From positions 124,001-188,000 of the forward strand of contig NZ_AOLK01000019.1 in assembly GCF_000336755.1 (NCBI RefSeq): a DNA stretch of 64,000 nt. The letters are read 5' to 3'. Both the position numbers and the translations under genes were made by a program. This DNA is from Haloferax elongans ATCC BAA-1513. GTDB lineage: Archaea > Halobacteriota > Halobacteria > Halobacteriales > Haloferacaceae. Below the pieces are notes generated by a model that was given only the letters and a program-made list of their open reading frames with translations, ran no database searches and was not told the origin of the DNA. Positions 23,488 through 53,383 of this stretch are shown here, one piece after another (the stretch's first letter is position 1; every line of letters begins with the position of its first letter).

Positions 23488-24435
23488 ATGGACATCGAAA
23501 CCGTCAAAGAACGGGCAGGGCCGCGAGAGTTCTCCGCCAAAGACGACATGCCGGAGGAGTATCGTAAGGCTGCGACCCGGATGATTCAGTTCCACGCGAA
23601 CAGTGAGATTATGGGGGCGTATCTGGAGCGACCCTTCATCCGTCAGGCACCGAGCTTAGAGCGCAAACTCGCCTTTTCGGCGAAGACGCAGGACGAACTC
23701 GGCCACGGGCAACTCCTGTACCGCGCCGCCGAGAGTCTGGGCGTCAAGACCCGCGACGAGATGCTCGACGAACTCGCCAACGGTGAAGGAAAGTTCCTCA
23801 ACTGCTTCCACTACCCGATGGAGTCGTGGGTGGAGACCCCGATGATTGCGTTCTTCGTCGACGGCGCGGCGATGCGCCGACAGGCGACGCTGAAGAACAC
23901 CTCGTGGGAGCCGTACGCTCACGCGATGGACAAGGTCTGTTTCGAGGAAGGATTCCACGTCAAACACGGCGAGGCAATCCTCCACGAACTGATGACCGGC
24001 TCCAAGAAAGAACAGGAGATGACCCAAGAGGCCTTCGAGAAGTGGTGGCCTCGCATCATCCAGTTCTTCGGCCCCACCGACAAGCAGTCGACCCACCACG
24101 GCTTCGCCAGTGAGGTCGGCCTCAAGCAGATGTCGAACGACGAACTCCGGCGGGCGTTCCTCAACAGCTACGTCCCGAAAGCCGAGAAGTACGGCCTCGA
24201 AATCCCGGACACGCCGCGCATCACGAAGAACGACGACGGCACCTACGAGGTCAACGAAGACGACCTCGACTGGGACGAGTTCTTCCAGATTGCGAAAAAC
24301 GAGTACGAACCCGGTGTCGGCCAAATCGACGGTCGCAAGAAGGCCCAAGAGGCGGTCGCCTGGGTCCGCGAATCGATGGACAAACACGAACAGACCATCT
24401 ACGGCGGCGGCGAGAGCCCGCAGGCGGCAGACTAA
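23488..24435 (+). CDS. paaA: Phenylacetyl-CoA 1,2-epoxidase catalytic subunit PaaA
   Basis: A 315-residue ferritin-like diiron oxygenase subunit that epoxidises the ring of phenylacetyl-CoA. Iron-ligand motifs are visible: Glu70 and His73 in AKTQDELGHGQLL, and Glu153/Glu154 with His157 in CFEEGFHVKHGE, matching bacterial PaaA. The WETPMIAFFVDGAAMRRQATLKNTSWEPYA-type segment is also conserved. ATG 23488 (MDIETVKERAG) is preceded by AGAGAG; upstream in-frame residues are not conserved. First gene of the paaABCD(zinc-ribbon) operon, 12 bases before paaB. Confidence 0.95.
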   Translation: MDIETVKERAGPREFSAKDDMPEEYRKAATRMIQFHANSEIMGAYLERPFIRQAPSLERKLAFSAKTQDELGHGQLLYRAAESLGVKTRDEMLDELANGEGKFLNCFHYPMESWVETPMIAFFVDGAAMRRQATLKNTSWEPYAHAMDKVCFEEGFHVKHGEAILHELMTGSKKEQEMTQEAFEKWWPRIIQFFGPTDKQSTHHGFASEVGLKQMSNDELRRAFLNSYVPKAEKYGLEIPDTPRITKNDDGTYEVNEDDLDWDEFFQIAKNEYEPGVGQIDGRKKAQEAVAWVRESMDKHEQTIYGGGESPQAAD

Positions 24436-29903: not shown

Positions 29904-30629
29904 TTACTCGGCGAGCGAGACGCCGAGGTACCGGTCGAGCACTTCTTCTGACTCGGCGACTTCGTCTGCGGGACCCTCGTGGACGACTTGCCCTTTGTCG
30001 AGGATATAGACGTAGTCGGCCGCGTCGAGTGCCACCTGCACGTTCTGCTCGACGAGCAGGATGGTGACGCCCTCGTCGTTTAGCTCGGTTATCTTCCGCT
30101 GGACTTGCTTGACGATAGACGGAGCGAGACCCTCGGTCGGCTCGTCGAGCATCAGGAGGTCCGGCGCGGAGACGAGCGCGCGGGCGATAGCGAGCATCTG
30201 TTGCTCGCCGCCCGAGAGGTTCGCCCCCCTGCTCTCGTGGTGGCGCGCGAGGTTTTCGAACTCGTCGATTATCTCGTCGACGCTCGGTTTCTCGATGTCG
30301 CGTCGGCCACCGATACGGCCGATTTCGACGTTCTCGCGGACTGTCAGTCCGGGGAACACGCGACGCTCTTCCGGGACGAGCGCGATACCTGCCTGCGCCG
30401 TCTTCTCGGGCGAGAGTTCGGTGATGTCGTTGCCATCGAAGGTGACAGTGCCGCTCGTTGGCTTCACACTCCCGAGGATGCTGCGGAGCGTCGTCGTCTT
30501 CCCGACACCATTGCGGCCGATGAGCGTGACGACAGACCCCTTGTCGACGTCAAGGTTGACGCCCTGAAGGACCCGTGTCGACCCGTACCCGGAGACGAGG
30601 TCTCGGACCGAAAGCAGCGGGTCGGTCAC
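29904..30629 (-). CDS. livF: Liv-type ABC transporter ATP-binding protein (LivF-like)
   Basis: A 241-residue ABC ATPase. Walker A is GRNGVGKTT, the signature is LSGGEQQMLAIARALV and Walker B is LLMLDEPTEGLAP. The LDEPTEGLAPSIV segment is typical of LivF. It energises branched-chain-amino-acid-type (HAAT) import together with the LivG-like protein, whose gene it overlaps by 4 bases. In this island the substrate is more likely an aryl acid than an amino acid (inference from flanking paaK genes). Confidence 0.92.
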   Translation of the reverse strand: MTDPLLSVRDLVSGYGSTRVLQGVNLDVDKGSVVTLIGRNGVGKTTTLRSILGSVKPTSGTVTFDGNDITELSPEKTAQAGIALVPEERRVFPGLTVRENVEIGRIGGRRDIEKPSVDEIIDEFENLARHHESRGANLSGGEQQMLAIARALVSAPDLLMLDEPTEGLAPSIVKQVQRKITELNDEGVTILLVEQNVQVALDAADYVYILDKGQVVHEGPADEVAESEEVLDRYLGVSLAE

Positions 30630-31390
30630 GCTTCGACACCTCCGAAGTACGCTCTGCGGACTTCGGGGTCTTCCGACACCGCATCGGGTGTCCCCTCAGC
30701 GAGTATCGCGCCCCGATGGAGCACCGTGATACGGTCGGAGACGCGCATCACAAGGTCGATGTCGTGTTCGATGAGGAGCAGCGTCCGGTCCGACAGCACC
30801 TCGTGGATGAGGTCCATCGTCGCACGCGTCTCCTCGGCGCTCATCCCCGCCGTCGGCTCGTCGAGGAGGACCATGTCGGGGTCCGTGGCGAGCACGATGG
30901 CGATTTCGAGTCGCCGCTTGTCACCGTACGCGAGGTTGTCGGCGACTTCCTCACCGCGACCCGACAGGCCAGACCGGTCGAGGACGCGCTGGGTGTGCGC
31001 GTTTACTTCCTCGAAGGTGTTCGCTCGCTTGAGGAACTCCTCGGTCGGGCGGAAGTCTCCGTGCTGTGCCGCTTGTGCCGAGAGCCTGACGTTCTCGCGG
31101 ACCGTCAGCCCGGAGAAGATATTCGTAATCTGGAACGACCGACCGAGACCCTTGCGGACGCGCTCGTGTGGCGGCAGCCCGGTCACGTCCTCGCCGTTGA
31201 ACGTGACTGTCCCGCTCGTCGGGCGAAGCGCCCCCGTCAGCAGGTTGAACGTCGTCGTCTTCCCGGCCCCGTTGGGACCGATGAGACTCCGGAACTCGCC
31301 GCGTTCGACTTCGAGGTTCACGTCGTCGACGGCGACGAGTTTGCCGAACTCTTTGGTCAGATTCGTCGTCTGGAGGATGGGCTCAGTCAT
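30626..31390 (-). CDS. livG: Liv-type ABC transporter ATP-binding protein (LivG-like)
   Basis: A 254-residue ABC ATPase with Walker A GPNGAGKTT, a degenerate signature region (NLAYGDKRRLEIAIVLATDP) and Walker B MVLLDEPTAGMSAEE. The extended C-terminal part and the AYGDKRRLEIA variant are typical of LivG rather than LivF. The gene overlaps livF by 4 bases and the permease gene by 8, so the operon is tightly coupled. Confidence 0.93.
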   Translation of the reverse strand: MTEPILQTTNLTKEFGKLVAVDDVNLEVERGEFRSLIGPNGAGKTTTFNLLTGALRPTSGTVTFNGEDVTGLPPHERVRKGLGRSFQITNIFSGLTVRENVRLSAQAAQHGDFRPTEEFLKRANTFEEVNAHTQRVLDRSGLSGRGEEVADNLAYGDKRRLEIAIVLATDPDMVLLDEPTAGMSAEETRATMDLIHEVLSDRTLLLIEHDIDLVMRVSDRITVLHRGAILAEGTPDAVSEDPEVRRAYFGGVEA

Positions 31391-33359
31391 GCTGTTCCAC
31401 CTCCGTTTCCGTCACGCTCGTCTGGTCGCGGACCACCGACCCGAACGTGGGGTGGTCGGCGACCGTCCGTGGGAGCGACACGAGCCCCCGCGGGACGAAA
31501 ATGACGAACAGGACGAACAGCACGCCGATGACGAGCTGCCACTGGTCGATGTACGACGAGAGGATGTCTTCTGCGGCGACGAAGACGCCTGCGCCAATCA
31601 TCGGGCCGTAGAGCGTCCCCATGCCGCCGAGGACGGTCATCACGATGACCTCACCGGAGTTAATCCAGTGGAGGAACGACGGGGCGACGTAGCCGTTGTT
31701 CGCGGCGAACAGCCCGCCAGCGAGTCCGGCGAGCCCGCCGGAGACGACGAACGCACGGCGCTTGTAGGCCGTCACGTCGTAGCCGATGAACGAGGCCCGG
31801 TCTTCGCTCTCGCGGATGGCCTGCAGAACCGACCCGAAGGGCGCGCGGATGAGCCGACGAGCCAGCAGGTACGACCCCACGACCATGGCGAGGAGGAAGT
31901 AGTACTGGACGATGCCGCCGTCGAAGACGAACAGGCCCAGCGGAATCTCGAACTCACCGGGGTCGATGCCGAGTCCGGCGAGGCCGTAGAACACGTCCAC
32001 GCCGAAGAGGCCGTCAGAGCCGCCGGTGAAGTCGAACTTGAACACGGCGTTGTAGAACAACTCCGCGAACCCGAGGGTAATCATCGCGAAGAACACCCCG
32101 GAGACCCGTATCGACAGGTAGCCGACGAACCACGCGATAGCTGCACAGACTACCACGGCTACCACGAGCGCGACGAACACCGACGGCGAGATGTGAATCA
32201 GCGTGAGAACCGATGCGTACGCGCCGACGCCGTAAAACAGCGTGTGCCCGAGTGAGACCAGTCCCGCGTAGCCGAGGACTAAGTCGAGGCTAAGCGCGAA
32301 CAGCGCCCAGATGAGGATGTCTTCGAGGAGCGTCACGGAGTAGGTGACGCCCGTCAACTCCGCGAGGAACGGCACGAGCACGAGGACACCCACGGCAGCG
32401 TAGCCGAGTTTCGCCCGTGTCTCAGACGAGAGGACGCCACCGCCTGCACCGTGCAGCAGTGCGCCGTCGTGGTGCTCACCGGCACCGATAGAAGTCCCGA
32501 AGAGACCCGTCGGCTTGACGACCAACACGACAATCATGAGGAGGAAGACGATGAGTCCCTCTAAGAACGGCGTGTAGGTCCGCGCCAGCGTCTGGACGAG
32601 GCCGACGAACAGACCGCCAGCGACTGCGCCCCGGAACGACCCGAGACCGCCGAGGACGACGATGACGAAGGCGGGGATGATGACGGCATTACCCATCGTG
32701 GGGCTGACGTTCTGGAACGCCCCGAGGACGATGCCTGCGACGCCAGCGAGCGCTGCGCCGAACCCGAACGTCAGCGTGTAGTAGCGGTCGATGTTGATGC
32801 CGAGGTTTCGAACCATCTCGCGGTCCTCGGACCCGGCGCGGATTATCATCCCGAACTGGGTGCGGCTCAGGAGGAGCCACGTTCCGAGTGCGAGAACCGA
32901 CCCGATGACGATGATGGCGTAGTTGTACATCGAGTACGTGAACCCGAACAGCGCAATCGGCTGGTCGAGTGCGGCCGGGATTGGGAACGGCTGGGCCGAC
33001 TTCCCCCACACCGAGGTGATGAGGTCGTTGATGATGAGCACCAAGCCGAATGTGAGGAGAATATGGTACAGCGGGTCGCGGCCGTAGAGTCGCTTCACGG
33101 TGAGCCGTTCGATAGCCATGCCGATGACACCGACGAGTAGCGGGGCCACGACGAGCGCGACCCAGAAGCCTGCGCCTCCCAGTGGTCCGGCGATGGCGAA
33201 CGCGAAGTACGCCCCGAGGGCGAACAGTTCGCCGTGGGCGAAGTTGATGACGTCCATCACGCCAAAGATGATGGAGAGGCCGGCCGCGAGGAGGACGTAC
33301 ACCATCCCCACGACGAGTCCGTTGAGGACCTGTTCTGCGACTGCGGTGGCGACAGACAT
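31383..33359 (-). CDS. Fused LivH-LivM permease of a branched-chain-type ABC transporter
   Basis: A 658-residue polytopic protein joining two normally separate permeases. Residues ~1-300 are LivH-like (VLNGLVVGMVYVLLAAGLSIIFGVMDVINFAHGE; VVLGGLGSFRGAVAGG). Residues ~330-640 are LivM-like (LSLDLVLGYAGLVSLGHTLFYGVGAYAS; VLGGMGTLYGPMIGAG). A charged linker (GAGEHHDGALLHGAGGGVLS) joins them. About 17-18 membrane segments are expected. ATG 33359 (MSVATAVAEQVLNGL) is preferred, one base after the binding-protein stop. Substrate is inferred from context only. Confidence 0.93.
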   Translation of the reverse strand: MSVATAVAEQVLNGLVVGMVYVLLAAGLSIIFGVMDVINFAHGELFALGAYFAFAIAGPLGGAGFWVALVVAPLLVGVIGMAIERLTVKRLYGRDPLYHILLTFGLVLIINDLITSVWGKSAQPFPIPAALDQPIALFGFTYSMYNYAIIVIGSVLALGTWLLLSRTQFGMIIRAGSEDREMVRNLGINIDRYYTLTFGFGAALAGVAGIVLGAFQNVSPTMGNAVIIPAFVIVVLGGLGSFRGAVAGGLFVGLVQTLARTYTPFLEGLIVFLLMIVVLVVKPTGLFGTSIGAGEHHDGALLHGAGGGVLSSETRAKLGYAAVGVLVLVPFLAELTGVTYSVTLLEDILIWALFALSLDLVLGYAGLVSLGHTLFYGVGAYASVLTLIHISPSVFVALVVAVVVCAAIAWFVGYLSIRVSGVFFAMITLGFAELFYNAVFKFDFTGGSDGLFGVDVFYGLAGLGIDPGEFEIPLGLFVFDGGIVQYYFLLAMVVGSYLLARRLIRAPFGSVLQAIRESEDRASFIGYDVTAYKRRAFVVSGGLAGLAGGLFAANNGYVAPSFLHWINSGEVIVMTVLGGMGTLYGPMIGAGVFVAAEDILSSYIDQWQLVIGVLFVLFVIFVPRGLVSLPRTVADHPTFGSVVRDQTSVTETEVEQHD

Positions 33360-33360
33360 A

Positions 33361-34617
33361 TCAGAGGGTGCAGCCCAGTTCGCCGCAGTCGGGAAGCGCG
33401 TCGGCACCGTCTATCATCTCGCCGAGTTCGACGGCCGCAGGACCGCTGCCGCCCTCCGGTGCCACCAGTTCACCCGGCCAGACGGGATTCATCGCCTGGT
33501 GGTCGCAGTCGCGGAACTGGTTCGGTCCGAGGATGGTGTCCATCTCCAGTCCCGGGAGGACGTCCTTGACCTCGGCTGGGTCCGTGGAGTCAGCTTCCGC
33601 GATTCCCTGCGCAGTCATCCGAATGGACATGTAGGCCGCGCGGGCGAAGTTGTCGGGGGCGGAGCCGTATTCGCTCTGGTAGGCCTCGACGAAGGACTGG
33701 TTGTCGCCCGTTTCGATCGACGGAAGATAGCGGACACCGCCGTAGGTTCCGTAAGCCGCCTCGCCGAGCGCGCCGCGGACGACGGCGAACGTCATCGTCG
33801 GTGACATCAGGTTCACGTTCTCTTTGAGACCCTGCCCCGCCGCCTGCTTGACGAAGTTGATGAGGTCGCCGCCAGTCATCCCGAGGACCGCCACGTCGGC
33901 GTCGGAGTTGGCGATTTGACTGACGTACGAGTTGTAGTTGGTCGAACCGAGTTGCGAACGACTGCGGCCGACGACGTTGATGTCGTGGCCGTCTTTCATC
34001 CGCTTTTCGACGCGCTGCATCACCGACTCACCGTAGGCGTAGTCGGCGATGTGGAACCAGACGTTGGTCCCGAGGTTCTCCGCGGTGAAGTCGGAGACAG
34101 CTTCGGCCATCTGTGCTGTGTTGGTCTCCGCGCGGAACACCCACTCGTTACAGTTCGACCCGGTGATGGGCACGGCCGCACCACCGGGGTTGTAGATTAC
34201 TTCTTCTTCCTTCGCGAACTCGTTGAGCGCGAGCGCGACACTGGACGAAATTGCACCCATGATATAGGATGCGCCGTCCTGCTCGACGACCGACTGTGCC
34301 TTTCGTCGTCCTGTCGAGGGGTCTGCTTCGGTGTCCTCGTAGACGCCGGTAATCTCGACGTCGATGTCGTCGTTCTCGTTGACGTGTGCGATGGCGAGCT
34401 CCGCGCCGTTGCGTTGCCCTTCTGCGAGGCCACCGTAAGGACCAGTCATCGGACTGATTATCCCGTAGGTGATCTCGTTCGCCCCGCCGCCACCGCCGCC
34501 GAGGCACCCTGAGAGGCCTGTGAGGCCGGTTACACCGGCGAGCCCTGCTGCCTGTACGAATCTCCGCCGTGACGGACGCAGCCCACTACCGCTGTCCGCG
34601 GAATTCTCGTCTCTCAT
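33361..34617 (-). CDS. ABC substrate-binding lipoprotein (LivK-like, Tat signal)
   Basis: A 418-residue exported receptor. The N-terminus has a twin-arginine motif (RPSRRRFVQAAGLAGV) and a lipobox-like LSGC followed by a Gly-rich linker, so it is probably Tat-exported and lipid-anchored. The mature part is a periplasmic-binding-type receptor of the branched-chain amino acid group (YGIISPMTGPYGGLAEGQRNGAELAIAHVN; GAISSSVALALNEFAKEEEVIYNPGGAA). First gene of the four-gene importer operon K-HM-G-F. Because it sits between two paaK genes, arylacetate or another aromatic acid is a candidate ligand. Confidence 0.9.
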   Translation of the reverse strand: MRDENSADSGSGLRPSRRRFVQAAGLAGVTGLTGLSGCLGGGGGGANEITYGIISPMTGPYGGLAEGQRNGAELAIAHVNENDDIDVEITGVYEDTEADPSTGRRKAQSVVEQDGASYIMGAISSSVALALNEFAKEEEVIYNPGGAAVPITGSNCNEWVFRAETNTAQMAEAVSDFTAENLGTNVWFHIADYAYGESVMQRVEKRMKDGHDINVVGRSRSQLGSTNYNSYVSQIANSDADVAVLGMTGGDLINFVKQAAGQGLKENVNLMSPTMTFAVVRGALGEAAYGTYGGVRYLPSIETGDNQSFVEAYQSEYGSAPDNFARAAYMSIRMTAQGIAEADSTDPAEVKDVLPGLEMDTILGPNQFRDCDHQAMNPVWPGELVAPEGGSGPAAVELGEMIDGADALPDCGELGCTL

Positions 34618-34716: not shown

Positions 34717-35721
34717 TTACGAGACGTGCGGAACGACCTCTTCGCCGAGGCGGTCGATGCACTCGACCATCCGTTCGGTTCCGATACCGGGGTGGTACGT
34801 TCGGAAGATGAAGTGGATATCGTCGCCGAGGGCGTCCCGATAGCGTTCGAGGTCTTCGACGACGTCTTCTGGTGTCCCGTAAATCGCCTGCTCTTTGAGT
34901 TCCTGCCGACGCTCTTCGGACAGTTCGGGCACCGATTCACCGGAGAAGATTTCGGCGTAGCGGCGCTGAATGTACAGATAGCCGTCTTTCATCGCGTCCC
35001 ACGCCTCTTCTTTCGAGTCGCCGACAAACCCGTGTTGGAGGACATAGATTGTGAAGTCGTCGTCGAGGCCTTCCTCCTCGCGGACGTTTCTGATGTCGTC
35101 GACGCGCTTTTTCACGCCACCAATCGACAGCGACGAGGGCGCACACCACGCGTCGGCGGTTCGCGCTGCGCGACGGACTGCGGGCTTTGCAGCACCGCCG
35201 AGCATCAACGGAACGTCGTGTGCTGGCTTGGGTGTCACGTCGACGCCCGTCGCCCCGGCGTGGAACGCCGACTCGTGTTCGATTGGGCCGTCGGACCACG
35301 CGTCCCGCAGGAGCGACACCGTATCAGAGAGCCGTTCCACGCGCTCGTCCCGAGGGACGTCGAACGCGTCGAACTCTCGCGGATTCGACCCGATAGAGAG
35401 ACCGAGCGTCGTTCGCCCGCCGGACAGCAAGTCGACTGTCGCCGTATCCTCGGCGAGGCGAATCGGGTCGTACAGGGGCGCCAGCGCTATGCAGGTTCCG
35501 ATTTCGATGTCGTCGGTGACTGCCGCGAGCGCGCCGAGTGCCGGCATCGTCCCGGAGAGATAGCCGTCGTCGAGGAAGTGATGCTCCGAGACCCACGCGC
35601 TCGCCAGTCCGGCGTCGTCTATCGCTCGCCCGAGCGTCAGCATCTCGTCGTACAGTTCCGACATCGGTCGGTCGTCGTCCGGCCGCTTCTGACAGGTGAA
35701 CAAGCCAGTCCCGAGTTCCAT
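34717..35721 (-). CDS. LLM-class flavin-dependent oxidoreductase (luciferase-like)
   Basis: A 334-residue luciferase-like monooxygenase of the F420- or FMN-dependent group. The N-terminus (MELGTGLFTCQKRPDDDRPM), EHHFLDDGYLSGTMPALGALAAV, and the LSGGRTTLGLSIGSNPREFDAFDVPRDERVER segment are typical of the family. Coenzyme type cannot be decided by eye. Its ATG (35721) shares a symmetric TATTAATA box with the divergent gene at 35775. A role in aromatic metabolism or as a flavin donor is only inferred. Confidence 0.88.
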   Translation of the reverse strand: MELGTGLFTCQKRPDDDRPMSELYDEMLTLGRAIDDAGLASAWVSEHHFLDDGYLSGTMPALGALAAVTDDIEIGTCIALAPLYDPIRLAEDTATVDLLSGGRTTLGLSIGSNPREFDAFDVPRDERVERLSDTVSLLRDAWSDGPIEHESAFHAGATGVDVTPKPAHDVPLMLGGAAKPAVRRAARTADAWCAPSSLSIGGVKKRVDDIRNVREEEGLDDDFTIYVLQHGFVGDSKEEAWDAMKDGYLYIQRRYAEIFSGESVPELSEERRQELKEQAIYGTPEDVVEDLERYRDALGDDIHFIFRTYHPGIGTERMVECIDRLGEEVVPHVS

Positions 35722-35774: not shown

Positions 35775-36260
35775 ATGCCGGTTTCAGACGACTCCCGTAT
35801 GCCTCCTGCTCGCGTCGACCACGTCGGAATCGCCGTCGAGGACGTCGACACGGCGGAACAGACGCTCTTCGCACTGGGGTGTGAGCGCGTGCATCGAGAG
35901 ACAGTCGCCGACGGCTCGTTCGAGTGGGCGACCTACGTCCTCGGCGACGCGTCGCGTCTCGAACTCATCGCCCCCGTCGAGGGTGAGTCGTTCCTCACTG
36001 ACTATCTCGACGCCAACGGGCCAGGACTCCATCACGTCACGCTGGAAGTCGTCGATATCGACGCCGCAATCGAGGCGTTGGAAGACGCAGGCGAGCGCGT
36101 GGTCGGGCACTCCGTCGAAGACGGCTGGACCGAAGCGTTCGTGTCGCCACAGAACCCGACCGGCGCGCTGTTTCAGCTGATGGAGTACCACGACGACTAC
36201 GCGGACAAGGGGCCAGACGAGGCGCTGTTCGTCCACGGAGAGCGACTGCAAAACGAGTGA
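35775..36260 (+). CDS. VOC/glyoxalase-fold protein, methylmalonyl-CoA epimerase-like
   Basis: A 161-residue vicinal-oxygen-chelate protein. The two halves begin RVDHVGIAVEDVDTAEQTLFALG and GPGLHHVTLEVVDIDAAIEALEDAG, and the C-terminal half has FVSPQNPTGALFQLMEY, the methylmalonyl-CoA epimerase-like pattern (SPxNPTGxLxQLxE). It may epimerise a CoA thioester in propionyl-CoA or aromatic catabolism. ATG 35775 is supported by the symmetric TATA box ~27 bases upstream. Substrate unproven. Confidence 0.82.
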   Translation: MPVSDDSRMPPARVDHVGIAVEDVDTAEQTLFALGCERVHRETVADGSFEWATYVLGDASRLELIAPVEGESFLTDYLDANGPGLHHVTLEVVDIDAAIEALEDAGERVVGHSVEDGWTEAFVSPQNPTGALFQLMEYHDDYADKGPDEALFVHGERLQNE

Positions 36261-44695: not shown

Positions 44696-44752
44696 TTTAT
44701 CGAGAGCCCTGACAATTTCCCCACAATGTTCATTATCGTACCTCACAAATCT

Positions 44753-44769
44753 GTTCGAACTATTCGAAC
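44753..44769. promoter_or_regulatory. Putative IclR operator, site 3 (perfect palindrome)
   Basis: GTTCGAACTATTCGAAC: perfect seven-base arms around CTA, ending 31 bases before the small ORF start at 44800. Confidence 0.6.
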
Positions 44770-44799
44770 GGCTGTCCCACCATCATAGAGAGGACAATT

Positions 44800-44931
44800 A
44801 TGGCTCTGAAACCTGAGGAACGACCAGAATTGGTTGATACGAGCGTCGAAGACGGCGACAAACGCTCCGAACCGATGTTCGAACAGTTCGAACAGTTGTT
44901 CAAGCTATTCGCTCGAATCAGGAGAAACTGA
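44800..44931 (+). CDS. Possible 43-residue small protein
   Basis: ATG at 44800 is preceded five bases upstream by GAGAGGA (44788-44794), a credible Shine-Dalgarno sequence. The 43-codon frame encodes an acidic N-terminal half and an amphipathic C-terminus (FEQFEQLFKLFARIRRN). It overlaps the last 14 bases of the convergent IclR gene. A perfect operator-like palindrome (44877-44893) lies inside it, encoding the FEQFEQ repeat, which may mean the sequence is regulatory rather than coding. No homologue is recognised; treat as tentative. Confidence 0.35.
   Translation: MALKPEERPELVDTSVEDGDKRSEPMFEQFEQLFKLFARIRRN
44877..44893. promoter_or_regulatory. Putative IclR operator, site 4 (perfect palindrome)
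   Basis: GTTCGAACAGTTCGAAC: perfect seven-base arms around CAG, 24 bases beyond the IclR gene stop and inside the tentative small ORF. Confidence 0.55.
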
Positions 44932-45685
44932 GGTTGATTTCGACCTCGTTGGCCGCCCCGAGGAGGAGGTTCGCGAGTTCGTCTTCCAACCGGTCGTCTG
45001 TGAGTCGATTCGACGGCCCTGAGAGGCTAATCGCACCGACTGGGTGGCCGGCTTGGTCGGTGATAGGAACACCGACTGCGTGGAGTTTCGGAACGATTTC
45101 TTCGCGGTTGAGGGCGAATCCACGGTCTCTGATAGTCGCTAACTGCTCGAAGAGTTCGTCTCGCTCGGTGATGGTCGCGTTCGTCTTCGCCGGGAGGCCG
45201 TGTTGGTCGATTATCTCGTCGACGCGGTCGTCGGAGAACGCAGAGAGAATCGCTTTCCCGGCGGCGAGCTGGTGGAGGTACGACCGCGTGCCCTCACGAG
45301 CGGGCGTCCGAACCGAGTGCTTGCCGCCAGCACCGTAGAGGTGGTAGCCCCGACCCTGTTCTTCAGTCACGCACCACACCTTCTCGCCGGTCTGTTCGGC
45401 GAGTTCGTCGACTTTCGGTTTCGCCACTTCGTAGAGATTGTGTTGGTTACGTGCGTGGATACCGAAGTCGAGGAGGCGAAGTCCGACCCGATAGCCATCC
45501 TCGTCGAGGACGACGTATCCCTCCTGTTCGAGCGTCTTCAGGTGTCTATGGACGGTACTCTTCGCGAGGTCTAGCTCCGAGGCGAGGGCCGTCGGCCCGA
45601 GCGTGCCCTGCTCTTTGAGACGCTCGAGAATGGCGAAAGACGTTGCTGCCGTCTTCACTGGGCGGCGTTGTCGGTCAACTGTCAT
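44918..45685 (-). CDS. IclR-family transcriptional regulator
   Basis: A 255-residue regulator. Residues ~15-70 are the winged HTH (ATSFAILERLKEQGTLGPTALASELDLAKSTVHRHLKTLEQEGYVV), and ~80-250 the IclR ligand-binding domain (DELAEQTGEKVWCVTEEQGRGYHLY; GRRIDS-like ISLSGPSNRLTDDRLEDELANLLLGAANEVEINL). IclR proteins commonly control aromatic catabolism and bind small acids. It is divergent from the EthD/TPP gene set. A CTTATTA box ~26 bases upstream suggests a leaderless mRNA, and palindromes at 45720-45766 suggest autoregulation. Confidence 0.93.
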   Translation of the reverse strand: MTVDRQRRPVKTAATSFAILERLKEQGTLGPTALASELDLAKSTVHRHLKTLEQEGYVVLDEDGYRVGLRLLDFGIHARNQHNLYEVAKPKVDELAEQTGEKVWCVTEEQGRGYHLYGAGGKHSVRTPAREGTRSYLHQLAAGKAILSAFSDDRVDEIIDQHGLPAKTNATITERDELFEQLATIRDRGFALNREEIVPKLHAVGVPITDQAGHPVGAISLSGPSNRLTDDRLEDELANLLLGAANEVEINLSFS

Positions 45686-45719
45686 CGTTTGTCATCTGTA
45701 GTCGACCGTAATAAGTGTT

Positions 45720-45736
45720 GTTCGCACTATTCGAAC
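45720..45736. promoter_or_regulatory. Putative IclR operator, site 5
   Basis: GTTCGCACTATTCGAAC: same architecture as the perfect sites with one mismatched pair. It sits just upstream of the IclR TATA-like box (~45707-45713). Confidence 0.6.
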
Positions 45737-45740
45737 GCTT

Positions 45741-45766
45741 GTTCGATTTGTTCGAATAATGCGAAC
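45741..45766. promoter_or_regulatory. Putative IclR operator, overlapping sites 6 and 7
   Basis: Two interleaved copies: 45741-45757 (GTTCGATTTGTTCGAAT, half-sites) and 45750-45766 (GTTCGAATAATGCGAAC, one mismatched pair). They lie 44-70 bases before the EthD-family ATG (45810), where they would overlap or adjoin that promoter. Confidence 0.55.
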
Positions 45767-45809: not shown

Positions 45810-46130
45810 ATGATTAAATTGGTAAATTTGGTCGTCCGCAAGGATGAGTACACACACGAGGAGTTCGTCGAGCGATGGACTGGCGAGCACGCTGACCTCG
45901 CGAAGGACCTCCCGGGCCTCAAGAAGTACGTGACGAGCCTTCCCACGGCGCCCGAGCGTTCGGAGTACGACGGCATCGTCGAACTCTACTTCGAAGACAT
46001 GGAGTCGCTGAAGGCGGCTTTTTCCTCCGAAATCGGCGAGGCAGTCAACGCCGACGCAGCCGAATTTATCGACATGGAACAGGGTCCGACGGAGTACGTC
46101 GAAGAGACCGTGCAACTCGACAGGTCGTGA
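45810..46130 (+). CDS. EthD-family protein
   Basis: A 106-residue ferredoxin-like-fold protein of the EthD family: MIKLVNLVVRKDEYTHEEFVERWTGEHADLAKDLPGLKKYV, and DGIVELYFEDMESLKAAF. EthD proteins accompany oxidative catabolism of ethers and aromatics, sometimes as small isomerases or dehydratases. A GAGGTG Shine-Dalgarno sequence at 45803-45808 precedes the ATG, so this mRNA has a leader. It is 7 bases from the TPP-enzyme gene, forming an operon controlled, by inference, by the IclR protein. Confidence 0.85.
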   Translation: MIKLVNLVVRKDEYTHEEFVERWTGEHADLAKDLPGLKKYVTSLPTAPERSEYDGIVELYFEDMESLKAAFSSEIGEAVNADAAEFIDMEQGPTEYVEETVQLDRS

Positions 46131-46137
46131 AGTTCTC

Positions 46138-47832
46138 ATGGACACGAGCGAACGACTCGTCGAGAGTCTCGAGCGACTCGGCGTAACGCGTATCTTCGGC
46201 TACCCCGGCGGCCGAGTCATCGAACTGTTCGACGACTTGCCGGAGTCGAGTATTGACCTCGTCCGACCGCGTGACGAGCGTGAGGCGAGCGTCATGGCCG
46301 AGATGCACGGCCGACTCACTGGTGGACCCGGAGTCCTCGCCGGACAGGGACCGTGGATTGGAAGTCTGGGACTCATCGGACAGATGGAAGCCCGTCTCGC
46401 ATCGTCGCCGATGGTCGCCATCACCGAAGCCTCTGAGCGCGGTGACTACTCGACTATCGCGCCCTACCAGCAGTCACGCGGTGACTACGGCGGTCTCGAC
46501 CTACCGAACATCCTCGATTCGGTCACCAAGGAACACTGGTTCCCGCGGACACCGAACGAGACGATTCGAAGCCTCCAACTCGCGTTCAAACACGCCGTTG
46601 CAGGTCGCCCCGGCCCGACTGCGGTCATCCTCGACGGCGACGCGATTACAGAGGAGTTCCCCGAGGACTCGATTCCACCGGTGTGGGACGAAGAGACCCA
46701 AACGCGGATGTGGAAGGCTGCGCCGACGCCACACGACGTGGCGGCCGCGACAGAGGCCCTCGAATCGGCCGAGCGGCCGGTCATCATCGCTGGAAACGGT
46801 GTCCACGCGGCGAACGCCTACGACGAACTGCAAGACGCTGCTGAAGCGTACGAGGCGGCAGTCGTCACGTCGTATCTCGGCAAGTCCACGTTCCCTGAGA
46901 CGCACCGACTCGCAGGTGGCGTCATCGGCTCGTTCGGCCACGAGGGAGCGAATCAGGTCGTAAGCGAGGCAGACGTCCTCCTCGTCGTCGGGTGTCGGAT
47001 GAACCCGATGGACACCAACTGGCAGGCACCAGACTTCATCCGCCCCGACGAGCAGACGATTATCCACGCCGACATCGACCCCCGGAACGCCGGGTGGGTC
47101 TATCCGGCCGACGTGGGCCTCATCGGTGACGCGGCAGAGTCACTTCGCGAACTCGCCGCCAGCGGTGGCAACGACAACGAGTGGGCTGAAGACCGCGCCA
47201 GCGACGCCCGCGAGTCGTTCCACGCGCCCGAGTGCGAATCCGACGCGACGCCGATTCTCCCGCAACGCGCCGTCAAAGAAATCGAACGCGTCGTCGACGA
47301 GGACACAATCGTCACCGCCGACTCGGGGAACAACCGCTTTTGGCTCCTGAACTACCTCCAAGTTCCGGCGGTCGGAACCTACTACGGCTCTGGTGGCGTT
47401 GGCGGCATGGGCTGGGCGACGCCCGCGGCAGTGTCCGCGGCGCTCGAAACCGACAAACACGTTATCGGCGTCGCGGGCGACGGCGGCTTCTCGATGACGA
47501 TGAACAGCGTCGAGACGGCCGTCGAGTACGGTGTCGCGCCGACGTTCGTCGTCCTGAACGACACCAGTCTTGGGATGGTCCGACAGATGCAACACGGCCC
47601 GGACGACATCTCAGGAGTCGAGTTCCACGACACCGACTTCGTCCGCGTCGCAGAAGCGTTCGGCGCAATCGGCGTCCGTGTCGAGACGCCCGACGAACTC
47701 GGTGATGCGCTCACAGATGCGGCGTCGAACGACCTTCCGACGGTCATCGACGTTCGTATCGACCGCGAGCAGGACATGGCCGAGACGCTCCAGTCGTCGT
47801 TCTACGCCTCGGTAGGCGGACTGCACGAATAG
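46138..47832 (+). CDS. Thiamine-diphosphate-dependent enzyme (acetolactate synthase/decarboxylase-like)
   Basis: A 564-residue three-domain ThDP enzyme. The N-terminal PYR domain has a conserved Glu in RPRDEREASVMAEMHGRLTGGPGV. The central TPP_enzyme_M domain includes RPVIIAGNGVHAANAYDEL. The C-terminal PP domain binds ThDP-Mg through GDGGFSMTMNSVETAVEYGVAPTFVVLND. It resembles AHAS-like decarboxylases or lyases; a 2-oxo acid of aromatic or aliphatic origin is the likely substrate. No regulatory small subunit is encoded nearby, which argues against a biosynthetic acetolactate synthase. Confidence 0.88.
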   Translation: MDTSERLVESLERLGVTRIFGYPGGRVIELFDDLPESSIDLVRPRDEREASVMAEMHGRLTGGPGVLAGQGPWIGSLGLIGQMEARLASSPMVAITEASERGDYSTIAPYQQSRGDYGGLDLPNILDSVTKEHWFPRTPNETIRSLQLAFKHAVAGRPGPTAVILDGDAITEEFPEDSIPPVWDEETQTRMWKAAPTPHDVAAATEALESAERPVIIAGNGVHAANAYDELQDAAEAYEAAVVTSYLGKSTFPETHRLAGGVIGSFGHEGANQVVSEADVLLVVGCRMNPMDTNWQAPDFIRPDEQTIIHADIDPRNAGWVYPADVGLIGDAAESLRELAASGGNDNEWAEDRASDARESFHAPECESDATPILPQRAVKEIERVVDEDTIVTADSGNNRFWLLNYLQVPAVGTYYGSGGVGGMGWATPAAVSAALETDKHVIGVAGDGGFSMTMNSVETAVEYGVAPTFVVLNDTSLGMVRQMQHGPDDISGVEFHDTDFVRVAEAFGAIGVRVETPDELGDALTDAASNDLPTVIDVRIDREQDMAETLQSSFYASVGGLHE

Positions 47833-47915
47833 TTCGCCCCGGCCGGACACCCACTCCGGTTTCCCGTAGCAGTCCGGGAAACACTTTTCTCGCATGCAGG
47901 TAGACCTATGATAGC

Positions 47916-48878
47916 ATGTCATCATCGACCGTGTTGGTCACCGGTGGAACCGGGTTCATCGGTTCCTACGTCGCACAGGACCTCCTCGAAGCGGGACACG
48001 ACGTCGTCGCGTACGACCTCTCGACGGACCCGCGAATTCTCGAAAAACTCGGCATCGCCGACGACGTAACCATTCGACGGGGCGACGTGAGCGACCCGAC
48101 AGACGTCTTCCGGGCGGTTCGCGAGACGGGGACGACACACATCGTCCACCTCGCTGCGCTGCTGACGACGACGGCGCGGGAGAACCCGCGCGCCGCGATG
48201 GACGTGAACATCGCGGGGACGAACAACATCTTCGAGGCGGCCCGAGCGCTCCCCGACCAAGTCGAGCGCGTCGCGTGGGCGTCTTCCGCCGCGGTCTACG
48301 CACCGCCAGCGAACTACGGCAACGACTTCGTTACCGAATCCGACCTCGTCTATCCCGACACGCTCTACGGGGCGACCAAGGAGTACAACGAGCACCAGGC
48401 ACGCGTCTACTACGAGGACTTCGACGTCTCGCACGTCGCCATCCGGCCGACTGTCGCGTATGGTCCGTATCGAGAGACCGGTGGCTCTGCGTTCCTCGCG
48501 AACATCGTCGAAAAGCCCGCTCTCGGAGAGTCGTTCAGCGTCGAGTACGGCGACCAAGTCATCGACTGGCAGCACGTCCGCGACATCGCACAGGGCTTCA
48601 GACAGGCGGCGTTCACCCCGGACGAAGAACTTTCCCAGCGTGTCTACAACGTACGCGGTGAACTCGCGACGATTCGCGAGGCCGCAGAGGCAGTCGAGCG
48701 AATCATCCCGGACGCCGACCTGACGGTCTCCGACGAGGGCGAGTTGCCGTGGACGCAGAAACTCGATATGACGAAGGCAAAAGAGGACCTCGGGTACGAA
48801 CCCGAGTACGACATCGAATCGGGCTTCCGCGACTACATCAACGTCTTGCGAGAAGAAAACGGACTGGACCCGGTCTGA
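47916..48878 (+). CDS. NAD-dependent epimerase/dehydratase (extended SDR)
   Basis: A 320-residue extended short-chain dehydrogenase. The Rossmann motif is VTGGTGFIGSYV (residues ~8-19) and the catalytic Tyr151/Lys155 pair lies in LYGATKEYNEH, with the Ser region WASSAAVYAP. The lack of nearby sugar-nucleotide genes and its place in a catabolic cluster suggest a small hydroxy/keto substrate rather than cell-surface sugar synthesis, but this is inference. A CACTTTTC element ~30 bases upstream may be a separate promoter. Confidence 0.9.
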   Translation: MSSSTVLVTGGTGFIGSYVAQDLLEAGHDVVAYDLSTDPRILEKLGIADDVTIRRGDVSDPTDVFRAVRETGTTHIVHLAALLTTTARENPRAAMDVNIAGTNNIFEAARALPDQVERVAWASSAAVYAPPANYGNDFVTESDLVYPDTLYGATKEYNEHQARVYYEDFDVSHVAIRPTVAYGPYRETGGSAFLANIVEKPALGESFSVEYGDQVIDWQHVRDIAQGFRQAAFTPDEELSQRVYNVRGELATIREAAEAVERIIPDADLTVSDEGELPWTQKLDMTKAKEDLGYEPEYDIESGFRDYINVLREENGLDPV

Positions 48879-48936
48879 GGCGCGCGGTCGGGGGGTCCGA
48901 CAGTTCGCCGACTGCTAGCTGACTGTGAGCCGACTG

Positions 48937-49125
48937 TTAGTCGGTCTTGGGTTCGAGACCCAGCAGGTCGCGGATGTCGTCTGCCGACAGCAGGTCGACG
49001 AGACTCTCACCTTCCTCGTACTGCGTTCGCTCCTCGTCGGTGAGATACTCGTCTAGTTCGTGCTCTGAGAGCAATTCCTCAAGTCGGTCGTCGATGTCGT
49101 CGGGGTCGTAGCCGGGAATGACCAT
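48937..49125 (-). CDS. Small acidic hypothetical protein
   Basis: A 62-residue, very acidic protein (YDPDDIDDRLEELLSEHELDEYLTDEERTQYEEGESLVDLLSADDIRDLLGLEPKTD) with no Cys and predicted helices. ATG 49125 is preferred: a GTTATTTG box ~29 bases upstream fits a leaderless start, whereas upstream in-frame codons are Cys/aromatic-rich. It sits 64 bases from the cupin gene on the same strand. Function unknown; it may be a small partner protein. Confidence 0.6.
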   Translation of the reverse strand: MVIPGYDPDDIDDRLEELLSEHELDEYLTDEERTQYEEGESLVDLLSADDIRDLLGLEPKTD

Positions 49126-49189
49126 ACTACAATACATGTCGCTTGGAAACAAATAACATAGTGGTCGGTCCCAGTGTCTGGACACGCGT

Positions 49190-49558
49190 TCAGTCCACGA
49201 CGACACCGTCGTCTTTCGTGTTCGGTGCGCCGACCACGAACACCTCGCCGTCTTCGAGACAGTGAAGTTGTCGCAATTGGTCGGGCGAGACCACGACCAC
49301 GTCGCCGGTTTCGAGTTCCAGTGACTCCTCCTTCGCTTCCTCGTCGTCGAAGAAGTCCATCTCGAATCGCCCCGAGAGAACGTGGTACAGTTCTTCTTGC
49401 TCTTTGTGCCAGTGTTTGGTGCTGGTCTCGCCTGCCTCGTACACCCACACGTTCGGCCGCATCTGCTGTGGGCGCAGTTCGTATCCGACGGCGCGGACGT
49501 GAAGCCCGTTCATTCCTTCGTGCAGTTCGAGGTCGCCGATGGTGACGCTGTCGTACAT
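49190..49558 (-). CDS. Cupin-domain protein
   Basis: A 122-residue single-domain cupin. The metal-site motif is TSTKHWHKEQEELYHVLSGRFEM (two His and a Glu), and the second cupin box is GDVVVVSPDQLRQLHCLEDGEVF with His. It could bind a metal and act as an enzyme or sensor on a small ligand. Minus strand, between the small acidic protein and the HD-domain gene. Confidence 0.85.
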   Translation of the reverse strand: MYDSVTIGDLELHEGMNGLHVRAVGYELRPQQMRPNVWVYEAGETSTKHWHKEQEELYHVLSGRFEMDFFDDEEAKEESLELETGDVVVVSPDQLRQLHCLEDGEVFVVGAPNTKDDGVVVD

Positions 49559-49601
49559 CCACCACGAATACGGCGGGAGATCCTAAAGGACTACGTGCTG
49601 C

Positions 49602-50195
49602 TTACTGGGTCTGTGAGTACTGTTCGACCCACTCTTGGAGACTGATACCCATCGCAGCCTGCGTAATCGCGTTCGACGACGCCGAGTTTGCGCTCTTGAC
49701 GAGTTCTGCTTCGAGCGTCCGCGTCGGTATCTCGCCGATGAAGTGCGGAATCGCCCGCTGGACAGCGAGCGGGCAGCCAACTTCGTGAGCGAGCGCGTAC
49801 CCCGACAGCGAATGCGGAATCTCCTCGGTAGCGTACTCGGGGTCCGGGTCGTCGAGGACGTCGTCGTCGACGAAATCCACGTACTCGTAGCACTTTCCCA
49901 CGTCGTGCAGCAAGCAGGCCGCGCGGACGACGTCGAAGTCGGGGGCAGCGCCGTGGAAGTCGCGCTGTTCTTCGGCAGACTGAACGGCGATTCGAGTCAC
50001 GCCGCGGACGTGCTCGACGTTCGTGACCTCGTGGATATTCCACGCGTACGGGACGTCTTCGATATCTCTCCAGCCGCCGCGTTCGAGTCCCAAACACCAC
50101 GCATCGATGACCTGTTCTCTGAGACTGTCGTCTTCGATGTCGTCGAGTTCGGGGAACGCAGTTTCGACCTGTTCGCGATAGTCGATATTGCTCAT
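49602..50195 (-). CDS. HD-domain metal-dependent phosphohydrolase-like protein
   Basis: A 197-residue HD-family protein. The metal motif LLHDVGKCYEYVDF (HD...) and earlier His residues (IHEVTNVEHVRGVTRIAV), with later HEVGCPLAVQRAIPHFIGE, fit an HD hydrolase or lyase fold. HD proteins hydrolyse phosphates or, in some families, act as oxygenases and lyases. No catabolic role can be confirmed. It diverges from the M24 gene at 50434, separated by 238 bases with an inverted repeat. Confidence 0.8.
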   Translation of the reverse strand: MSNIDYREQVETAFPELDDIEDDSLREQVIDAWCLGLERGGWRDIEDVPYAWNIHEVTNVEHVRGVTRIAVQSAEEQRDFHGAAPDFDVVRAACLLHDVGKCYEYVDFVDDDVLDDPDPEYATEEIPHSLSGYALAHEVGCPLAVQRAIPHFIGEIPTRTLEAELVKSANSASSNAITQAAMGISLQEWVEQYSQTQ

Positions 50196-50346
50196 CGCGT
50201 ATTCACCGGCTCCTCCACACCAGTCGTCTCCTTCGTGCGCTCCGTCTCGTCCATACTGACACGCAAGGCTCTGTGCTCGTTCATGCGTACACTGTGCCGT
50301 CTACGCAGTGGGCAATAAATCATGAGGTGTGCTTGCACCACCCACA

Positions 50347-50377
50347 ATACATCGTTCGGCCGTGACCACCGATGTAT
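50347..50377. repeat. Inverted repeat upstream of the M24-fold gene
   Basis: ATACATCG (50347-50354) and CGATGTAT (50370-50377) are perfect eight-base arms with a 15-base spacer, ending ~26 bases before the TATA-like box of the M24 gene. Operator candidate. Confidence 0.4.
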
Positions 50378-50402
50378 GCGAACCCCCTGCCGTCTACAAC
50401 AA

Positions 50403-50410
50403 TTTAATAT
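50403..50410 (+). promoter_or_regulatory. TATA box of the M24-fold gene
   Basis: TTTAATAT centred ~28 bases before ATG 50434, as expected for a leaderless transcript. Confidence 0.6.
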
Positions 50411-50433
50411 GACGTTCGCGTGAGGTACAAACC

Positions 50434-51708
50434 ATGCCTTTCCACGAACGGGAATTCATGAGTGGAACCCGCGGAACGATGGCCGTCGATTGGGAGCAAC
50501 GAATCGACGTGAAACGGATGCGCGAAGAGCGAAAGGAGCGCGCGTTAGAGCGGATGCGCGACGCCGGCCTCGGAAGCATGCTCCTCATCGACGACCCCAA
50601 CATTCGGTACGTGACCGGTCTCGCGATGACGGGCGGGTCGGGCGCGGACCACTACTCGCTGCTGATGGAAGACGGCAACGTCGTCCACTGGGACACTGCC
50701 GACCATGCGAGCAATCAGAAGTACAACTGTCCGTGGCTGAACGACATCCGGTATGCGTGCCCTGGACTGGGGAACGTTCCCCGGGCGTCCGGCCGCGACT
50801 CGGCACGGTCGTTCCTCATCGACAAGATGGCACAGACCGTCGTCGACGCGCTCGAAGAGTACGACCTTACGAGCGAGCCGATGGGTATCGACACCGGCCA
50901 CACGGGGCTTCTCAACGCCTTCGAGTCCAAGGGCGTCGACGTTCGCCCCGCCGAGACTGCGCGCGTGATGGAAGACGCGCGAAAGACGAAGACCGAAGAC
51001 GAAATCGAGTGTCTTCGGCAGGTTGCTGCCATCTGCGAGGCCGGTTTCCAAGCTATCGTCGAGAACGCGAAGCCGGGCAAGCGCGAGTCCGAAGTCTGGG
51101 GTGACGCAGTCCGCGAACTCTGGCGACACGGCGCGATGGCACAGGGCGGGTACATCACCTCCGGGCCCAACACGTGGCCGAAGCACCAAGCCAACACCAC
51201 AGACCGGATGATTCGTCCGGGAGACCTCGTCTACGCCGACTTCTACAACATCGGCTACCTCGGCTACCGGTCGTGTTACTACCGGACGTTCTCGATGGGC
51301 GAACCCACCCAAGAGCAGAAAGACGCCTACGAGACGGCCCGCGACAACCTCTACGACGTCCTCGAAGAAATCGAACCGGGGAAGACGACCGACGAGATTG
51401 CGATGGCGTTCCCCGACATGGAGGGCGAACATGCCGACTGGTACGGTGCGGACGAACACTGGCAGATGACGACCAACCACTGGGCACACGGGCTTGGCCT
51501 CCAACTGTACGAAGTCCCACTCATCTGGCGTGGCCTGTCGCCCGACCACCCCATCGAAATCGAGGAAGGCATGACCATGGCCGTCGAGACACAAGAACCG
51601 GCAGGGAGGCAGGGCGTCCGCGTCGAGGAGATGGTCGTCGTCCGCGACGACGGCGTCGAACTCCTCAGTCAGTGGCCCGTCGAAGAGATAACTGTCGTCG
51701 ACCACTGA
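50434..51708 (+). CDS. M24 (pita-bread fold) enzyme lacking a canonical metal ligand
   Basis: A 424-residue creatinase-fold protein. The N-terminal creatinase domain (~20-185) is followed by the pita-bread domain. Expected metal ligands: Asp269 (VYADFYN), His352 (WAHGLGL), Glu385 (MAVETQEP) and Glu398/399 (VRVEEMVVV). The second Asp of the usual SDxTRT motif is replaced: the segment reads GYRSCYYRTF, with Cys281. A standard aminopeptidase is thus unlikely. M24 members with altered ligands include creatinase and DddP-type lyases, so a non-peptidase hydrolase or lyase acting on a small catabolite is a reasonable hypothesis. Confidence 0.85.
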   Translation: MPFHEREFMSGTRGTMAVDWEQRIDVKRMREERKERALERMRDAGLGSMLLIDDPNIRYVTGLAMTGGSGADHYSLLMEDGNVVHWDTADHASNQKYNCPWLNDIRYACPGLGNVPRASGRDSARSFLIDKMAQTVVDALEEYDLTSEPMGIDTGHTGLLNAFESKGVDVRPAETARVMEDARKTKTEDEIECLRQVAAICEAGFQAIVENAKPGKRESEVWGDAVRELWRHGAMAQGGYITSGPNTWPKHQANTTDRMIRPGDLVYADFYNIGYLGYRSCYYRTFSMGEPTQEQKDAYETARDNLYDVLEEIEPGKTTDEIAMAFPDMEGEHADWYGADEHWQMTTNHWAHGLGLQLYEVPLIWRGLSPDHPIEIEEGMTMAVETQEPAGRQGVRVEEMVVVRDDGVELLSQWPVEEITVVDH

Positions 51709-52672: not shown

Positions 52673-53383
52673 GTGGACACCCCGTTCGAAATCCTCGGTC
52701 TCGACCCCGATGCCGACGAGGACGACCTCGTCGCCGCCTACCGAGAGCGTATCAAAGCGGCACACCCAGACCACGGTGGCTCAGCAGAAGAGTTCCGACG
52801 CGTTCGAACGGCCTACGAAGCCATCAAAGAGGGGTACACGGCAGAAGACCACGCTACAGACCTCCAGCGGGCCGCAGAAGAATCCGGGGCAGGTGAGGAA
52901 AGAGAGGGTGCAACAGAGACCGAGCGCACGGATTCCGCGGCGGCCGCAGCAGGCCGACCAGAGGGTGTGCGTGTCGAATACCTGAGCTACGCCGCCCTCG
53001 ACGACTTCGGCTGGACGATTCACGACGACGACCTGTTCGAGAAAGCCGCCGAGGAAGACCTCCGAGCCGAGGATTACGGCGAGATATTCGTCTCGCCCCG
53101 CGATACGCTTCTCGAAGCGGCCCAAGAACACGGACTCGGCTGGCCATACGCCTGCCGCGGTGGTGCCTGCGCAAACTGCGCCGTCGCCGTCGTCGATGGA
53201 GACCTCGAAATGCCAGCAAACCACGTCCTCTCGTCGGAGATGATGGACAACGGGATTCGCCTGTCGTGTATCGGGACACCCGTCACAGACGACATGAAAG
53301 TCGTCTTCGACATCAAACACCTGCCCGGTCTCGAAGAACTCCGCCTGCCGCCACAACAGGCGAGGCGGATGTCCAGCGACTGA
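52673..53383 (+). CDS. J-domain fused to plant-type 2Fe-2S ferredoxin
   Basis: A 236-residue fusion. Residues ~1-65 are a J-domain with the essential HPD at ~31-33 (IKAAHPDHGGSAEEF). After an acidic/Ala-rich linker, residues ~100-236 are a 2Fe-2S ferredoxin with cluster ligands Cys161, Cys166, Cys169 (YACRGGACANCAV) and Cys199 (RLSCIG). This architecture is a known haloarchaeal ferredoxin type. The gene starts at GTG 52673, supported by a CTTATAC box ~28 bases upstream (leaderless). It is an electron-donor candidate for oxygenases, including the reductase-less epoxidase in this window. Confidence 0.88.
   Translation: MDTPFEILGLDPDADEDDLVAAYRERIKAAHPDHGGSAEEFRRVRTAYEAIKEGYTAEDHATDLQRAAEESGAGEEREGATETERTDSAAAAAGRPEGVRVEYLSYAALDDFGWTIHDDDLFEKAAEEDLRAEDYGEIFVSPRDTLLEAAQEHGLGWPYACRGGACANCAVAVVDGDLEMPANHVLSSEMMDNGIRLSCIGTPVTDDMKVVFDIKHLPGLEELRLPPQQARRMSSD

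Follow-up and report, generated by a model that had tools for sequence, protein, structure and literature searches.

A co-inherited gene module tied to the phenylacetate genes of Halobacteria, with predicted IclR operators, in Haloferax elongans

We analyzed a locus of Haloferax elongans ATCC BAA-1513 that lies near the phenylacetate (paa) genes, within a window of 64,000 nucleotides (the whole stretch of DNA analyzed; contig NZ_AOLK01000019.1, positions 124,001 to 188,000). A reading made earlier from the letters alone (the sequence-only reading) had placed there an undescribed catabolic module controlled by an IclR regulator and comprising an EthD protein, a thiamine diphosphate (ThDP)-dependent enzyme, a short-chain dehydrogenase/reductase (SDR), a small acidic protein, a cupin, an HD-domain protein, and an M24-fold enzyme. 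Comparison with Pfam and NCBIfam agreed with this reading in the position, domains, and strand of all eight genes (Table 1), and the locus is indeed not a single operon, as the cupin, HD, and small genes stand on the opposite strand. No enzyme of the locus reaches the cut-off of any specific NCBIfam function model, while the broad models TIGR02118 (EthD) and TIGR00277 (HD) are passed. The module also remains undescribed in the literature searched: no published account of it was found, it goes unmentioned in the closest genomics paper on haloarchaea, and a search for a pathway name in work on EthD, ThDP, and creatinase genes in haloarchaea returned nothing.

The module genes form a real unit. 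Among 148 Haloferacaceae genomes, orthologs of the ThDP, SDR, HD, and M24 genes occur in an identical set of 23 from seven genera, and the gene for an F420-type luciferase-like monooxygenase (LLM) oxidoreductase, 9 kb upstream of the module interval, was found in 22 of these 23. Similarly, among 194 genomes of the class Halobacteria, HD is present in 61 (26 genera, several families) and ThDP in 60; the two sets coincide, the sole mismatch (genome G177) having a partial ThDP copy at the edge of the stretch examined. Gene order is kept as well. In about 20 relatives from several genera, with ThDP orthologs of at least 76% identity, iclR diverges from (EthD-)ThDP-SDR, the small, cupin, and HD genes stand with a tandem-EthD gene on the opposite strand, and M24 follows. 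A lack of conserved synteny, which would have told against the sequence-only reading, was thus not borne out. In some Halorussus and Haladaptatus megaplasmids the module genes are tens to hundreds of kilobases apart; given their matching presence patterns, they therefore travel together even at such distances.

The boundaries of the module differ in part from those first drawn. At 40 HD loci outside the Haloferacaceae, a tandem-EthD gene lies within about 10 kb of HD in 38 cases, the M24, LLM, and SDR genes each do so in 28, and 26 have ThDP. Only 15 of these loci showed an IclR gene, 8 a single EthD, and 4 a cupin; the small acidic protein was seen at none. Because they are so rare or absent, the cupin, small protein, and single EthD are lineage additions and not the defining parts they had been taken for. 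The core is made up of ThDP, SDR, HD, tandem EthD, M24, and the F420-type LLM oxidoreductase. The genes of the original interval are genuine, but the LLM gene outside it also belongs, and the tandem EthD, located between HD and M24 in relatives, is missing at the window locus. The same is true of the sister genome G091, in which a second HD-tandem-EthD pair occurs elsewhere, adjoining 2-oxoacid dehydrogenase E1 genes. The genome of the window strain likewise carries a second HD copy (C1:2-541), at the very start of contig C1 and truncated at the point that corresponds to the start of tandem EthD in the sister genome; since this copy ends at the contig edge, a true loss of tandem EthD from the strain is not concluded. 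An ABC transporter is more loosely associated, its genes adjoining HD-tandem EthD in several other genera.

The link to phenylacetate catabolism is well supported. All 23 module genomes of the Haloferacaceae are among the 53 that carry PaaA (hypergeometric P of about 1e-12), and all 61 HD-positive genomes of the class are among the 92 of 194 that do so (P of about 2e-27), these P values ignoring phylogeny and overstating the evidence, as the genomes are not independent. HD shares a contig with PaaA in 51 of the 61 genomes and lies within 50 kb of it in 43. Since PaaA accompanies HD in every case, the suggestion that the module may feed phenylacetate now has the strongest support of the options considered. 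On the other side, 31 of the 92 PaaA-positive class genomes lack the module, which is therefore accessory and stands outside the central paa pathway. To our knowledge, no core module gene is a known paa gene, and no known feeder route (styrene, phenylethylamine, phenylalanine) employs this enzyme set. Neighbors of the module in other species include genes for a primary-amine oxidase, aldehyde dehydrogenases, a second PaaK, a PaaI-type thioesterase, a penicillin acylase, an amidase, and an aminotransferase plus 2-oxoacid dehydrogenase. Such genes are typical phenylacetate feeders; they fit a set of feeder routes and single out none. The single-EthD family shows a distribution of its own: it is present in 53 of 53 PaaA-positive versus 6 of 95 PaaA-negative Haloferacaceae genomes, mostly not beside paa, and in 30 of 30 PaaA-positive ones once module genomes are left out. 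This family may have a role in paa itself.

Table 1. Genes and predicted regulatory sites in and around the module, in window coordinates
Feature	Positions	Strand	Remarks
IclR-family regulator	44918..45685	-	PF09339 (HTH_IclR) and PF01614 (IclR_C) above cut-off; adjoins module in most orthologous loci
Single-domain EthD (dimeric alpha/beta barrel) protein	45810..46130	+	Lineage-specific part; TIGR02118 passed
ThDP-dependent enzyme, three-domain, acetolactate-synthase-like fold	46138..47832	+	Core
Extended SDR	47916..48878	+	Core; GGTGFIG and YxxxK (YGATK); Pfam Epimerase 145 bits
Small acidic protein, 62 aa	48937..49125	-	Lineage-specific; no Pfam or NCBIfam match
Cupin	49190..49558	-	Lineage-specific
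HD-domain protein	49602..50195	-	Core; TIGR00277 passed
M24/creatinase (pita-bread) fold enzyme, GYR[ST]CYYRTF subfamily	50434..51708	+	Core
F420-type LLM oxidoreductase	34717..35721	-	Outside the original interval; in co-inherited set; co-induced in published RNA sequencing
Branched-chain-amino-acid-type (HAAT-type) ABC transporter: two ATPases, fused permease, binding protein	29904..34449	-	Looser association
VOC (vicinal oxygen chelate)/methylmalonyl-CoA-epimerase-like protein	35799..36260	+	Frequent neighbor of module
PaaA, phenylacetyl-CoA epoxidase subunit	23488..24435	+	Pathway to which module is tied
Two exact GTTCG-N7-CGAAC palindromes between iclR and EthD	45720..45766	.	Plus overlapping one-mismatch copy, 45741-45757
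Three exact GTTCG-N7-CGAAC palindromes	44298-44314, 44753-44769, 44877-44893	.	Convergent gap, enoyl-CoA hydratase gene/iclR

The likeness of the module to the paa pathway and its feeder routes thus lies in constant company (always in paaA genomes, usually within 50 kb) and, in published RNA sequencing (RNA-seq) data, in common induction. In the silver-stress tables for Haloferax alexandrinus, module and paa genes show raised expression at one or both of 0.1 and 0.5 mM silver, and for 0.25 mM the tables give no changes (PMC10694973). From gene order on the annotated H. alexandrinus BNX82 plasmid, we infer that ilvB, galE, pepQ, and a flavin-dependent oxidoreductase of these tables are the ThDP, SDR, M24, and LLM genes, respectively. 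Their log2 fold changes at 0.1/0.5 mM are 3.59/4.02 for ilvB, 3.83/3.63 for galE, 3.56/2.11 for pepQ, and 2.25/2.07 for the oxidoreductase, and those of paa genes in the same tables are about 2 to 4 (PMC10694973, Tables 2 and 3). The stretch SC5-cds117-cds148 of that paper includes pepQ (cds120), galE (cds125), ilvB (cds126), paa genes (cds129-134 and cds142-148), the VOC gene epi (cds136), and the flavin-dependent oxidoreductase (cds137). These tables and the text around them do not recognize the module as such, and they speak against unrelated expression of its genes. The same source reports hyuA, hyuB, and mntH as induced with the M24 gene (PMC10694973). In the Haloferax clade, at loci L055, L058-L061, and L245, hydantoinase/oxoprolinase A and B genes and an Nramp transporter gene lie directly 3' of the M24 gene.

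The operator clusters noted in the sequence-only reading proved to be real. The palindrome GTTCG-N7-CGAAC has five exact copies in the window versus 0.49 +/- 0.64 (maximum 2) in shuffled sequences, and all five fall within the 1.5 kb around iclR (44298-45766), for which the genome density of 78 copies per 3.95 Mb predicts 0.03 (P of about 1e-10). In the iclR-EthD promoter, two exact copies and an overlapping near-copy jointly form a 17-bp inverted repeat with a 13-nucleotide spacer. Leaving the window aside, 18 of 22 orthologous upstream regions contain the palindrome. Its layout recurs at 11 further Haloferax loci and, in part, in other genera, while the DNA between the sites shows no conservation. 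This conservation of layout provides phylogenetic footprinting evidence for predicted IclR operators. No exact copy occurs before HD, M24, or paa. By the palindrome measure the module is therefore not one regulon, and IclR probably controls itself and EthD-ThDP-SDR, so that the claim of IclR control would hold for this part of the module. The regulator scores below the cut-offs of its nearest NCBIfam models, BhcR (159 versus 350 bits) and PcaR/PcaU (134 versus 285).

The 620-bp convergent gap at 44297-44917 has features of its own. Besides three exact and two one-mismatch operator palindromes, it contains a conserved TTACA-N10-TGTAA palindrome and TATA-like boxes (e.g., AAGTATATAA, about 25 nucleotides before a site in locus L055), and it folds better than shuffles (z of about -5), in part owing to the palindromes. 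Transcription from the gap, under operator control, could run antisense to the 3' end of iclR. A hidden small gene was rejected, the open reading frame of the window not being conserved, and Rfam returned no match across 44-52 kb.

Judged by their sequences, the ThDP and M24 enzymes fit no characterized family. In the former, the catalytic glutamate (E47) and the ThDP/Mg motif (G447-D448-G449 and N474) are invariant in 23 sequences, and the subfamily has an unusual conserved motif, D-S-G-N-N-R-F-W. Its best NCBIfam model, TIGR00118 (acetolactate synthase), gives 341.5 bits versus a cut-off of 538.35. The best solved match, BbmA (8x3x), which was not traced in the literature, shares the three-domain ThDP fold, the catalytic Glu, and the GDG...N cofactor motif, but the match amounts to about 218 bits over the full length, and the module enzyme reaches the cut-off of none of the NCBIfam models listed. 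Bacterial relatives with 35-38% identity (Martelella, Sulfitobacter, and Pseudohalocynthiibacter) share the DSGNNRFW motif only in part, and their genes neighbor those for IclR or GntR regulators, SDRs, and transporters. In the SDR, the nucleotide-binding GxxGxxG and the YxxxK motif are both intact; among solved structures, it matches L-threonine 3-dehydrogenases and UDP-sugar epimerases best.

The M24 enzyme retains the metal ligands D269, H352, E385, and E398/E399, while the second Asp is a cysteine (C281) in archaeal and bacterial members alike, leaving the five-ligand D-D-H-E-E set of metallopeptidases and prolidases incomplete. The GYR[ST]CYYRTF motif is also common to archaeal and bacterial members, at 35-37% identity. 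The predicted fold (mean pLDDT, the predicted local distance difference test score, of 74) is nearest to the dimethylsulfoniopropionate lyase DddP, then to prolidases, creatinase, and ectoine hydrolase. DddP is closest by both NCBIfam hidden Markov model (94.5 bits) and predicted fold (E of 3e-26, TM-score of about 0.74), but the score falls far short of the NF043017 cut-off of 600. Upon alignment to 4s01, the DddP ligand D295 is kept as D269, whereas the metal ligands D297 and D307 have Tyr271 and Cys281 opposite them; the catalytic D377 corresponds to Leu358 when residues are counted from the metal His. Since these ligands and this catalytic residue are not kept, the enzyme is filed neither as DddP nor as a peptidase, and its identity as a dimethylsulfoniopropionate lyase was rejected on active-site residues and score.

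The same M24 subfamily heads a widespread and conserved alphaproteobacterial operon, M24-E1alpha-E1beta-lipoyl/E2-SSADH (succinate-semialdehyde dehydrogenase)-E2, for which no published description was found in the literature. Across 81 alphaproteobacterial loci (80 retrieved loci and the reference), E1alpha is present in 76 and SSADH in 66, usually together with sugar-type ABC transporter genes. The archaeal module resembles this operon in its M24 subfamily and, in Haloferax mediterranei and Haloarcula, in having E1 and SSADH genes beside it; it differs in that no HD, EthD, or acetolactate-synthase-like ThDP gene was seen in the bacterial operon, where the transporter is of the sugar type. 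Two alternative sets of genes occur upstream of the bacterial operon, namely, a sugar ABC transporter with SDRs or a Liv-type ABC transporter with a glutathione-S-transferase-like gene.

In the HD protein, H62, H97-D98, H128, and H151 are invariant, and the last Asp of the H...HD...D signature of HD-domain metal hydrolases is replaced by Asn170 in 21 of 21 haloarchaeal sequences. The protein thus shares the HD motif and fold with metal hydrolases (YhaM, YfbR, SAMHD1 superfamily) but differs in this Asp-to-Asn change and in its near-constant tandem-EthD neighbor. A search with the predicted fold (pLDDT of 85) returned generic HD hydrolases only, none at E of 0.001 or below, and a mixed-valent di-iron oxygenase was rejected on this result. 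A counterpart in Agrobacterium (32%) was set aside for its unrelated gene context, and a pSymA copy has no annotation. Elsewhere in the window, at 52673-53383, a DnaJ-like domain is fused to a haloarchaeal 2Fe-2S ferredoxin.

With moderate confidence, we favor a module accessory to the haloarchaeal paa pathway, a peripheral catabolic route that feeds phenylacetate or phenylacetyl-CoA. Our data and the silver-stress paper establish the gene content, the co-inheritance, the dependence on paa, the co-induction, and the conservation of the operators; the class of substrate, the order of reactions, and the binding of IclR are what we infer in this proposal. An aromatic precursor, possibly taken up by the HAAT-type ABC transporter, would be converted to phenylacetaldehyde, phenylacetate, or phenylacetyl-CoA and then degraded by the neighboring paa genes. 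The LLM and HD/tandem-EthD proteins may prepare or rearrange the substrate upstream, and the M24-fold enzyme may perform a C-N or C-heteroatom cleavage or an elimination. The SDR would oxidize a 2-hydroxy group, and the ThDP enzyme would decarboxylate the resulting 2-oxo compound or cleave a C-C bond in it, the final steps falling to aldehyde dehydrogenase, PaaK, and paa. The divergent IclR would bind the GTTCG-N7-CGAAC palindromes and control itself and EthD-ThDP-SDR. More tentatively, and with rather less than even confidence, the module could constitute a new aerobic peripheral pathway into phenylacetyl-CoA, widespread in Halobacteria. Such a pathway would comprise a new M24 subfamily with Cys for a metal-binding Asp (in common with the alphaproteobacterial operon), an HD/tandem-EthD pair of new function, a new acetolactate-synthase-like ThDP decarboxylase or lyase, and an F420-linked step.

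Several points weigh against this proposal. Besides the non-independence of the genomes and the lack of exact operators before HD, M24, and paa, 18 of the 61 genomes have no HD gene within 50 kb of PaaA. The HD, tandem-EthD, and IclR genes were not found in Tables 2 and 3 of the silver-stress paper (PMC10694973). Many genes respond to silver stress with induction, and neighbors can be induced together without sharing a substrate. The order and chemistry of the steps are not derivable from sequence. The module might instead repair or detoxify by-products of paa, such as ring-epoxide or oxepin shunt products, with PaaI-type thioesterases and EthD barrels as housekeeping partners and no feeding at all. 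Occurrence of the module only with paa, its induction with paa under oxidative or metal stress in the published tables, and the distribution of the single EthD, which fits a role in paa, would all suit this idea. We consider it unlikely, however, as the 31 genomes lacking the module indicate that paa can run without it, and the transporters, F420-type oxidoreductase, and second PaaK genes alongside resemble a substrate route.

An independent pathway for a non-aromatic (sugar-like or amino-compound) substrate that merely shares the megaplasmid catabolic islands appears quite unlikely. The alphaproteobacterial 2-oxoacid dehydrogenase/SSADH operon, with its mostly sugar-type transporters, and the E1, aminotransferase, and SSADH genes near the module in Haloferax mediterranei and Haloarcula point in that direction, but dependence on PaaA in 61 of 61 genomes, proximity to it in 43, and co-induction with paa in the silver tables argue against it. 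It is very improbable that the ThDP enzyme is anabolic and serves as an additional acetolactate synthase in making branched-chain amino acids or acetoin. Its fold resembles that of acetolactate synthase, which is also its best NCBIfam model, yet the model's cut-off is far from reached, the accessory distribution is tied to PaaA, the same genomes hold other acetolactate-synthase-type paralogs that match at only about 31-35%, and no small subunit gene was seen beside it. The biosynthetic assignment that could have overturned the sequence-only reading was accordingly not obtained. Finally, it is scarcely credible that unrelated catabolic genes with no function in common came together by chance in a megaplasmid region rich in genes: although the genes occupy both strands and several transcription units and are far apart in some Halorussus and Haladaptatus, their phyletic profiles contradict it, with presence patterns identical even at a distance, order kept in several genera, and common induction in the published tables.

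Peripheral aromatic catabolism is a known kind of metabolism; several enzymes of the module are uncharacterized. If the feeding proposal is true, about one in three of the halophilic archaea sampled would carry an unrecognized route into phenylacetate catabolism, its core enzymes bearing the misleading annotations acetolactate synthase, UDP-glucose epimerase, and Xaa-Pro dipeptidase; the pathway would be testable in the genetically tractable genus Haloferax. It would also offer an entry point to the function of the marine alphaproteobacterial M24 operon and provide a conserved archaeal predicted operator for an IclR regulator.

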